NCBI GenBank assembly: GCA_947631705.1
Contig: CANRMJ010000004.1
Coordinates: forward strand, 1 to 64,000
DNA: 64,000 nt
Direction of reading: 5' to 3'
Origin: an uncultured Clostridia bacterium
GTDB lineage: Bacteria > Bacillota > Clostridia > Oscillospirales > Acutalibacteraceae
Shown here: piece after piece, positions 23,740 to 56,017 of the stretch
Layout: each line of letters opens with the position of its first letter
Position numbering within the stretch: the stretch's first letter is position 1
The notes under the pieces: model-generated
What the model was told of the DNA's origin: nothing
Databases searched by the model: none
The model's input: only the letters and a program-made list of their open reading frames with translations
Made by a program: the position numbers and the translations under genes

Positions 23740-24174
23740 TTAAAGGAATCCTCTCATATCCTTTACAAGCTGTTCTTCAATATTTATCAAACGCTTTGTG
23801 ATATCCTTTGAGCTTTCATCCGCGGCGGCATATTGATTAAGATATTTACTGAGCGATTTAACGCCCATATTGCAGCCGTCCGTCATCAGATCGGCAACGG
23901 TTGCGTCTGACCTGTCCATAGCCAGCATCGCGTTCGTTTTTATCCAAGACATACCTTTTGCCATCGGATTTGGATTTTTGCCTTCATCCTGATATTTATC
24001 AAGATAAATCTGGATTTCATCTTTAAGCTTTTCGTGCTCGTCCTTGCAATCGGTTAAAAGCTGTTCAAGCTTATCGCTTTCAACATCATCAAGCACCTCT
24101 TCTATTGATGCCGCTCCCATTTTTATTCCCGCGTCACATTCACGAAGAAGTCTTACGGTGTCCTGTTCTATCAT
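23740..24174 (-). CDS. Uncharacterised helical protein, ferritin-like bundle suspected
   Basis: 144-aa, strongly helical, charged protein without membrane segments or signal peptide. Heptad-like stretches and the spacing of four amphipathic helices suggest a four-helix bundle of the DUF2383/ferritin-like sort. Phrases such as MAKGMSWIKTN and LMTDGCNMGVKSL look conserved in clostridial homologues, but I do not know a function. It is a single-gene unit with its own terminator. Its 5' leader is one of the two copies of the structured element described at 24175-24251. No ferroxidase iron-ligand pattern is obvious. Confidence 0.8.
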   Translation of the reverse strand: MIEQDTVRLLRECDAGIKMGAASIEEVLDDVESDKLEQLLTDCKDEHEKLKDEIQIYLDKYQDEGKNPNPMAKGMSWIKTNAMLAMDRSDATVADLMTDGCNMGVKSLSKYLNQYAAADESSKDITKRLINIEEQLVKDMRGFL

Positions 24175-24251
24175 AGCAATTCACATAGCCTTTCCGGCTA
24201 CAAATAGTAATTAAAAATCACATCTCCTGCGTAGCCGAACAGGGCGTGATG
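24175..24251 (-). ncRNA. Copy A of a repeated structured mRNA leader
   Basis: Immediately precedes the ATG at 24174. The 3' block TACTATTTGTAGCCGGAAAG continues GCTATGTGAATT and is nearly identical to the block before rsmE (55262-55291). TAGCC-GGAAA-GGCTA can form a hairpin that includes the only SD-like sequence (GGAAAGG). Further upstream, ATCAC pairs with GTGAT enclosing CCTG/CAGG. A cis-acting translation control element is the inference. Further upstream, to the iscR-like gene, there is only a CTCTCC/GGAGAG hairpin near 24260. Confidence 0.55.
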
Positions 24252-24393
24252 TAAATTTTGCCTCTCCCGCGGAGAGAATAGAAAAGCCTTGCCCTTCTAT
24301 TTATTTACATTTATATTATTGCCGCTTTTTTTCATAATAGGCAAAATATTTGAAACCACGCCGAAACAGACGGCTTTAAACAGTAAATTTCGC

Positions 24394-54283: not shown

Positions 54284-55129
54284 ATGATAATCACAGAAAA
54301 AGACGGCGCATTGATTTTGGAGGGCGTTAAATGCCTTGAGCTGCCGCTTACGCTTGACTGCGGACAGGCTTTTCGCTGGAAGGAGCAGGAGGACGGTTCG
54401 TGGAGCGGCGCAGCGATGAACAAATTTTTAAATATAAAAAAAGACGGCGAGGGGCGTTTTATCCTAAAAACAACGCTTGAAGATTTCAACAGCGTTTGGC
54501 GCAATTATTTTGATTTTGACAGGGATTACGAGGCAATATGCGAAAAAATAAAGCAGGATTCGCTTGTTGCCTCCACGGTGGACAAATATTACGGCATAAG
54601 AATTTTGAATCAAGACCCGTGGGAGGCGCTTGTTTCGTTTGTTATAAGCCAACAAAACAATATAAAAAGAATAAAGGGCATTATTAATCGCCTTTGCGAC
54701 GGCTACGGCGAGGAAATATGCGAGGGCTGGCACGCTTTTCCGAGCGCCGAAAGGCTGAGCGAGCTTTCGGTTGAGGATTTTGAGGCGATCGGAGCGGGCT
54801 ACAGAGGAAAATACCTTAAAAAGCTCGCCGATGACGCGGCAAGCGGAATAATAAATCTTGATGATATTAAAAATATGAGCCTTAAAGACGCCAAATCGGC
54901 TTTGCTTGGCATTTACGGCGTTGGCGTTAAGGTTGCCGACTGCGCGCTTTTATTCGGCTTTCAGTTTCTTGAATGTTTCCCGCTTGACGTGTGGATGAAA
55001 CGGGTGATGGAGTTTTATCCGAACGGTCTGCCCGAATGCTTTAAGGGCTATGAGGGAATCGCTCAGCAATATCTTTTTCACTGGGCGCGAAACAATCTTA
55101 ATAAAGGCACGGCAAAAATAAAGGATTAA
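54284..55129 (+). CDS. OGG1-like 8-oxoguanine DNA glycosylase
   Basis: Base-excision repair enzyme of the HhH-GPD superfamily, closer to eukaryotic OGG1 than to MutM. N-terminal LTLDCGQAFRWKEQEDGSW, then SFVISQQNNIKRIKGIINRL, catalytic Lys in GYRGKYLKKL (about residue 176), hairpin GIYGVGVKVADCALLFG and the Asp in FPLDVWMKRVM (about 232). Length (281 aa) is normal. ATG 54284 is 15 nt from GAGGAG, slightly far, but no better start exists. The end is followed by the leader of rsmE. Confidence 0.92.
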   Translation: MIITEKDGALILEGVKCLELPLTLDCGQAFRWKEQEDGSWSGAAMNKFLNIKKDGEGRFILKTTLEDFNSVWRNYFDFDRDYEAICEKIKQDSLVASTVDKYYGIRILNQDPWEALVSFVISQQNNIKRIKGIINRLCDGYGEEICEGWHAFPSAERLSELSVEDFEAIGAGYRGKYLKKLADDAASGIINLDDIKNMSLKDAKSALLGIYGVGVKVADCALLFGFQFLECFPLDVWMKRVMEFYPNGLPECFKGYEGIAQQYLFHWARNNLNKGTAKIKD

Positions 55130-55214
55130 TGCGAAAAATCACACATTCTATTATGATAGCGGATTGAGATGGCTAAAATTTTCCTATGGCATAATTTTGA
55201 GATGGCTGAATTCG

Positions 55215-55294
55215 CATAACGCCTTGTCCGTCCACAGGAAGAGTTATCGTGATTTAAAATACTATTTATTGCCGGAAAGGCTATATGAATTAAT
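55215..55294 (+). ncRNA. Copy B of a repeated structured mRNA leader
   Basis: Ends at the rsmE ATG. The block TACTATTTATTGCCGGAAAG continues GCTATATGAATT and matches copy A (24175-24251, minus strand) at almost every position. Upstream, ATAAC can pair with GTTAT around CCTTGT/ACAGG. Both copies share the order stem, linker, TACTATTT, GCC-GGAAA-GGC hairpin over the SD, then start codon. No Rfam class known to me fits it. Confidence 0.55.
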
Positions 55295-56017
55295 ATGAAA
55301 AAATTATTTGTTGAAAAAATATGCGGTGAAAAAATCACCTTGAACGAGGAGCAGAGCCGCCACATAGCAAAAAGCCTCAGAATGAGAAAGGGCGATATGC
55401 TCACTCTTTGCGACGGCGGCGGAAACGATTACGGCTGTATCATAGACGAAATAACGAAAAGCTCCGTTACCCTGTCTGTTTGCTATAAACAGGCAAGTGA
55501 AACGGAGCCGAATATAAAGGTGAGTCTTTTTCAGGGAGTGCCGAAGGCGGCAAAAATGGAAGATATCATTCAGAAATGCGTTGAGCTGGGCGTTTACGAA
55601 ATCACTCCCGTGCTCACCAAACGCAGCGTAAGCCGCCCCGAACCGAAACAGGCTGCCGCAAAGCGCGGGAGATACGGCAAAATTTCGCTTGAGGCGGCGC
55701 AGCAGAGCGGCAGGGGCATTGTGCCCGAAATAAACGAAATGGCAAGCCTTGAAACCGCGCTTTCGCAATGCCGCGCGGAGCTTATAATCGTTTTTTACGA
55801 AGGCGGCGGAGAAAGCCTTAAAAGCCTTATAAAAAGCGATATAAAATCGGTTGCGATCTTTATCGGCCCCGAGGGCGGCTTTGAAAAAGAGGAGATAGAC
55901 GCAATAAAGGCAAAGGGCGGAGTTTGCGCCACGCTGGGCAAGCGCATACTGCGCACGCAGACGGCGCCGGCAGCCGCTCTTTCGGCAATAATGCTGCTCA
56001 CGGGAAATCTTGAATAA
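55295..56017 (+). CDS. rsmE: 16S rRNA (uracil-1498-N3)-methyltransferase
   Basis: SPOUT-class methyltransferase modifying U1498 of 16S rRNA. N-terminal PUA-like domain with QSRHIAKSLRMRKGD; catalytic knot with GVPKAAKMEDIIQKCVELGV, RSVSRPE, FIGPEGGFEKEEIDA, LGKRILRTQTAPAAALS. Length (240 aa) is standard. Not preceded by prmA as in many genomes; instead it follows the glycosylase gene with its own structured leader. Confidence 0.96.
   Translation: MKKLFVEKICGEKITLNEEQSRHIAKSLRMRKGDMLTLCDGGGNDYGCIIDEITKSSVTLSVCYKQASETEPNIKVSLFQGVPKAAKMEDIIQKCVELGVYEITPVLTKRSVSRPEPKQAAAKRGRYGKISLEAAQQSGRGIVPEINEMASLETALSQCRAELIIVFYEGGGESLKSLIKSDIKSVAIFIGPEGGFEKEEIDAIKAKGGVCATLGKRILRTQTAPAAALSAIMLLTGNLE

Follow-up and report, generated by a model that had tools for sequence, protein, structure and literature searches.

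The window, the whole stretch of 64,000 nucleotides that was analyzed, carries two matching blocks of sequence, one on the plus strand before rsmE (approximately 55208-55294) and one on the minus strand before a DUF2383-like gene (approximately 24259-24175). Both blocks had been described in the initial annotation and both are present, with ACGCC-TGT-CG, TACTATTT, GCCGGAAAGGCTAT, TGAATT and the ATG in common. The 80-nt block described there is, however, only the 3' third (H3) of an element of approximately 170 nt, whose parts at the two loci are as follows.

55120..55125, plus strand: SD-like AAAGGA just 5' of the element (rsmE copy), overlapping the end of an ogg-like ORF
55127-55129, plus strand: stop codon of the ogg-like ORF
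55128..55147, plus strand: remnant of H1 (H1 consensus TTAGTGTGAAAAATCACACTAA)
55171..55206, plus strand: hairpin H2, GGCTAAAATTTTCC-TAT-GGCATAATTTTGAGATGGC
55208..55294, plus strand: H3 block, the part first noticed; covariance model match of 85 bits, with covariation in the family
Within this H3, plus strand: P0, AATTCGCAT/ATATGAATT, with one mismatch
Within this H3, plus strand: P1, ATAAC/GTTAT plus a weakened GCCTTG arm
Within this H3, plus strand: P2, TCCGTCCACA with TATTGCCGGA, the pairing weakened by mismatches
55274-55280, plus strand: GGAAAGG, 3' of the P0, P1 and P2 helices
55295..56017, plus strand: rsmE (16S rRNA m3U1498 methyltransferase), native ATG at 55295, 3 nt past the element
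24262..24276, minus strand: hairpin CTCTCCGCGGGAGAG at the H2 position of the second copy
24175..24259, minus strand: H3 block of the second copy; covariance model match of 85.7 bits
Within this H3, minus strand: P0, AATTTACAT/ATGTGAATT
Within this H3, minus strand: P1, ATCAC/GTGAT plus CCTG/CAGG
Within this H3, minus strand: P2, TTCGGCTAC/GTAGCCGGAA
24189-24195, minus strand: GGAAAGG, then GCT-ATG
23740..24174, minus strand: gene for a DUF2383-like helical protein, 3' of the second copy and starting at 24174; the assignment is weak, under the Pfam cut-off

Both of these copies are old and decayed. H1 is not recognizable in the second copy, and the full rsmE copy folds no better than its shuffles (z of +0.8); an intact copy before dxr has a fold z of -10.6 against shuffles. 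The insert separates the SD-like AAAGGA from rsmE and is absent at all 29 of the orthologous rsmE sites that were read. An SD inside the hairpin had been suggested for the two blocks: GGAAAGG is indeed there, 14 nt from the ATG, but it is the element's own, and an SD of the native type lies upstream of the whole element.

Three methods brought out further copies: blastn, a search by pattern, and R1, a covariance model to which 40 sequences contributed. Owing to the palindromic nature of the element, a few of the model's matches read one copy in reverse, and all counts are therefore approximate. The source genome (G000) contains about 32 distinct copies (33 matches at E ≤ 0.01, one being the reverse of a palindromic copy), which places the resemblance of the two blocks far beyond chance. 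A model search of the genome and its relatives had been proposed as a check, with more copies before other genes and covarying stems as support, and such copies do exist: of 36 other genomes of the genus, 28 have matches to the model, with a range of 0 to approximately 42 per genome, and 23 other families of the order have none. A scan of public genomes also detected the family in MAGs titled Ruminococcaceae, Eubacterium sp. and Clostridia, some of which may fall outside the genus. Scans of viral contigs yielded a single contig, classed as viral in IMG/VR, with one copy on its minus strand (L389:4480-4570). One copy (L148/L360, G015:C22) is a nearly perfect palindrome that matches the model on both strands, as if one arm of H3 had been copied onto the other, and a second strongly palindromic copy (L181, reverse strand 1009-1093, G034) scores 41 bits on the reverse strand. 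No relevant Rfam family matched the element at gathering or relaxed thresholds, and literature searches found no description of it.

The full element reads, from 5' to 3', H1 (GTGTGAAAAATCACAC), the linker GATTRTATTG, H2 (CTCAAAATTTGCC/GGCATAATTTTGAG) and H3, a pseudoknotted domain of three helices (P0, P1 and P2) with GGAAAGG-CTATGTGAATT at its end. The GGAAAGG is near invariant across copies; one copy (L125) has AAAGAC. The element separates the native SD of a gene from its native start codon: where H1 is recognizable, most copies have a canonical SD immediately upstream, and the distance from this SD to a GTG in H1 is mostly 5 to 10 nt. The inner H1 arm pairs better with its own host flank than with other flanks of the same genome (76 copies; mean complementary run of 3.84 for own and 2.67 for other flanks, with a maximum of 3.29 in 1000 shuffles), which could mean that the arm finds its target by pairing, that the flank was copied, or that selection acted later. 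Some copies are longer, at approximately 285 nt, as they hold a second, nested repeat of approximately 115 nt (CAGTTGCGGTRCCCAAAATTT...GCCAGTTCTTATTGCTCCCT..CTGCGAGCGGTCGCAAACGAACC), placed between H1 and H2 (long copies L083, L088, L095, L198 and L206). The long form was rejected as an autonomous parent, because the extra sequence is an independent intergenic repeat, which also occurs alone and sometimes in tandem (independent copies L279-L308) and is found in 22 of 80 genomes of the genus.

Significant covariation had been one of the checks proposed, and P0, P1 and P2 do covary in the family. Among the 40 sequences, P2 has 24 double-change cells, a number reached by none of 500 shuffles, and P1 has six, reached by one of 500. 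Duplex energies were also compared in 98 copies between cognate strands and strands exchanged among the copies within a genome; cognate pairing was better than all 300 swaps for P0 (-6.36 versus -5.67 kcal/mol), P1 (-10.38 versus -9.30 kcal/mol) and P2 (-15.01 versus -13.16 kcal/mol). P1 and P2 reach a dG of -5 or lower in 95 of the 98 copies and P0 in 61. The pentamer pairs ATAAC/GTTAT (rsmE copy) and ATCAC/GTGAT (second copy), initially read as compensatory, are genuine and form part of a covarying helix, P1a. Sub-types of P0 change both strands (AATTCACAT/ATGTGAATT, AATTCCCAT/ATGGGAATT, AATTTCCAT/ATGGAAATT and AATCACCAT/ATGGTGATT). As the 5' strand of P2 is the loop of P1, these two helices make up an H-type pseudoknot, around which P0 closes. 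An extension pairing GCCTT with AAGGC dominates the MFE of young copies, but P1 and P2 are the supported helices: the extension gains nothing from cognate pairing (-6.68 versus -6.59, with a swap minimum of -6.73), and a single continuous long hairpin was rejected as the conserved fold on this ground.

The position of the element relative to the downstream gene is precise. In 103 of 142 unique copies the start codon (ATG in 135 of the 142, GTG in 5 and TTG in 2) lies exactly 19 nt past the AAAG of GGAAAGG, a spacing that puts it 3 nt after TGAATT/GTGATT. The strong copies that were read are in gene orientation and directly 5' of a start codon, with rare exceptions, namely a copy with no gene downstream (L189/L361) and the palindromic L148/L360, which is followed by a very short frame. 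The exact 3-nt position is held by 43 of 49 copies with an intact H1 and by 60 of 93 decayed copies (Fisher p=0.003), which suggests that precision arises at insertion and is lost later. The genes downstream include rsmE, dxr, radA, argS, proB, carA, luxS, yicC, prmA, purC and proS, together with gyrB-like, dnaB-like and hsp20-like genes; many are housekeeping genes, and they have no common pathway. The gene names of eight downstream proteins were checked with NCBIfam, in which the DUF2383-like protein had no match. Three nearly identical copies of a CCCAT sub-type in the source genome (L094, L095 and L105) precede argS, proB and carA, all tied to arginine or proline metabolism, which may be chance. 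In genome G029, copies occur in tandem (L164, L165 and L169), the right end of one element lying 3 nt 5' of the H1 GTG of the following one, as if this GTG functioned as a start codon or insertion could itself target the left end.

Among 30 upstream regions read for each gene, the rsmE and dxr copies occur only in the source genome and the yicC copy only there and in G004. The joined flanks of eight copies from G015 were searched against G004, a genome of approximately 90% identity, and seven of the eight matched across the junction with no insert. At purC, for example, G004 has AGGAGGAATATTAAA-ATG and G015 has AGGAGGAATT-[element]-AAA-ATG, and gyrB, proS, hflX and a U32 peptidase gene are further sites occupied in G015 and empty in G004. 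In the sites compared, no target-site duplication was visible and the flanks rejoin directly. Empty orthologous sites indicate that the copies are recent mobile insertions, and the family has two marks of a MITE-like element, multiple dispersed and nearly identical copies at non-orthologous sites and empty orthologous sites in relatives. We conclude from these genome comparisons that the element was recently inserted between the SD and the start codon, and that any regulatory effect would be secondary to its nature as a mobile insertion. A plain mobile repeat lying away from start codons, the contrary case considered in the initial annotation, describes the family only in part, as it is mobile but sits at start codons. 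Most likely, it represents a small mobile element of a new kind, one that inserts close to start codons.

No mobilizing enzyme was found in searches for Y1 transposase and reverse transcriptase. The three genomes of highest copy number (G000, G015 and G029) lack an IS200/IS605-type Y1 transposase, though they are drafts and the absence is not absolute; reverse transcriptase is absent from the drafts of G000 and G015, with a weak match in G029. These absences, of the transposase in three high-copy genomes and of reverse transcriptase in two, make an IS200/IS605 derivative, a REPIN/RAYT element and, with no Rfam match, a group II intron derivative or retrotransposition unlikely. Insertion, as the comparisons show, takes place in a single orientation, between the SD and the ATG, GTG or TTG and 3 nt before that codon; an enzyme acting in trans would presumably move the element. 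A bolder proposal, to which we give limited credence, is that the element recognizes translation-initiation sites as such, always 3 nt upstream of the start codon, for example by integration at or through ribosome-bound mRNA or by reading of the context of SD and start codon. We know of no mobile element that chooses its targets in this way.

Insertion at such a site leaves the native SD facing the GTG in H1 at normal spacing and the gene's own start codon 3' of the element. The GGAAAGG beside the P1/P2 pseudoknot would then be the most likely ribosome-binding site, and because the element would bring this site with it, insertion into essential genes could be tolerated. The covarying structure may be kept because it serves mobilization, translation once the element is inserted, or the two together. 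In the metG copy of G029 (L376), a deletion has given the 3' end of the element a canonical, optimally spaced SD (TGAGGTGA-TTAATT-ATG), which is what initiation at this end would predict. However, the 14 nt between GGAAAGG and the start codon exceed the usual SD spacing, and the AAAGAC of L125 also speaks against this role. On the sequence evidence, we consider that the element probably supplies its own GGAAAGG ribosome-binding site.

It is also possible, but improbable, that the ribosome-binding site is split, the three hairpins forming a compact insert across which a 30S subunit at the native SD reaches the native AUG. Most copies retain the native SD upstream, joining of both flanks restores normal spacing, and the predicted fold has H1, H2 and H3 almost head to tail; T4 genes 25 and 38 offer a precedent, in which structure between SD and AUG brings an interval of 22 or 27 nt down to 5 or 11 (PMC3014915). 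However, approximately 20 unpaired nt are left between the hairpins in the predicted fold, the insert is 6 to 10 times longer than in T4, and the element has a GGAAAGG of its own. Retention of the SD may, moreover, be mere history, as most copies are young.

The initial annotation had proposed a new class of riboswitch or protein-binding leader. A conserved, structured, RNA-like leader before start codons, with covariation and with no Rfam family, is what stands of this proposal. A true cis-regulatory regulon (riboswitch, thermosensor or protein-binding leader) spread by duplication could account for a covarying pseudoknot beside an SD-like sequence, for the fixed distance to the AUG and for the constant gene orientation. 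As the primary identity, however, such a class fails: the targets are unrelated (argS, proB, dxr, radA, luxS, carA, rsmE and others), copy number within the genus runs from none to about 42, and orthologous genes show no conservation, the rsmE, dxr and yicC copies being missing from nearly all orthologs and seven of the eight tested sites differing between close relatives by clean empty sites. We consider a regulon of this kind distinctly unlikely.

An intron-like element, removed from the mRNA so that SD and start codon are rejoined, would explain why excision gives back normal SD spacing and is consistent with a structured insert without target duplication. It is nevertheless very improbable, because the insert is only approximately 170 nt long and has no Rfam group I or II intron match, there is no reverse transcriptase in G000 or G015, the GTGYG-like 5' end lies in a variable stem and is not conserved, and a splicing element should be tolerated inside ORFs too, where none was seen. 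Least probable of all is a leader peptide or translational coupling, with the native SD translating a short ORF from the GTG in H1 and the ribosome reinitiating at the gene: 67 of 82 copies have this GTG at normal SD spacing, the frame it sets is more open than the other two and some source-genome copies stay open to a TGA overlapping the ATG of the gene, but the frame stops before the end of the element in 66 of the 82 and shifts between copies, so that a conserved peptide was rejected.

We are thus moderately confident that the two blocks in the window are old copies of a mobile element, non-autonomous and inserting at translation starts, whose GGAAAGG probably gives it a ribosome-binding site of its own. 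As a rule, mobile elements either keep clear of translation signals or destroy them, and the few bases between an SD and a start codon are a very unusual place for one to settle. Approximately 30 genes per genome are occupied, including aminoacyl-tRNA synthetase, gyrB and dnaB-like genes, and the strains survive. This raises the questions of how a mobile element finds start codons and how a gene with a structured RNA of 170 to 290 nt in its ribosome-binding site stays translated. The unit of pseudoknot and GGAAAGG could be a portable ribosome-binding module. There is also a warning here, in that multicopy structured leaders before unrelated genes, the usual sign of new riboswitch classes, can be mobile insertions.

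Among known systems, the split ribosome-binding sites of T4 genes 25 and 38 (PMC3014915) share with the element an RNA structure between SD and start codon. They differ from it in having one small hairpin within 22 to 27 nt, at a single site, and in being neither mobile nor multicopy. The palindromic intergenic repeats and MITEs of bacteria (REP/REPIN, BOX, Correia and bcr1) occupy intergenic space generally, and REP/REPIN sequences rely on a Y1 (RAYT) transposase. Like these, the element is short, non-autonomous, hairpin-rich and multicopy, with lineage-specific expansions and a patchy distribution among relatives; unlike these, it lies 3 nt before start codons, in one orientation and with no visible target duplication, and, unlike REP/REPIN, it is found in genomes (G000, G015 and G029) in which the Y1 transposase was absent. 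In Clostridium difficile, a c-di-GMP riboswitch and group I ribozyme lie upstream of a start codon, and removal of the RNA joins the SD to that codon. Removal of the present element would likewise bring an SD to a start codon, but it is of approximately 170 nt and is without an intron signature or evidence of splicing. Finally, the TD-1 and TD-2 motifs of Treponema denticola resemble the element in that a structured leader recurs many times within a single genome, before genes of diverse kinds; for the element described here, the empty sites of its relatives show mobility.
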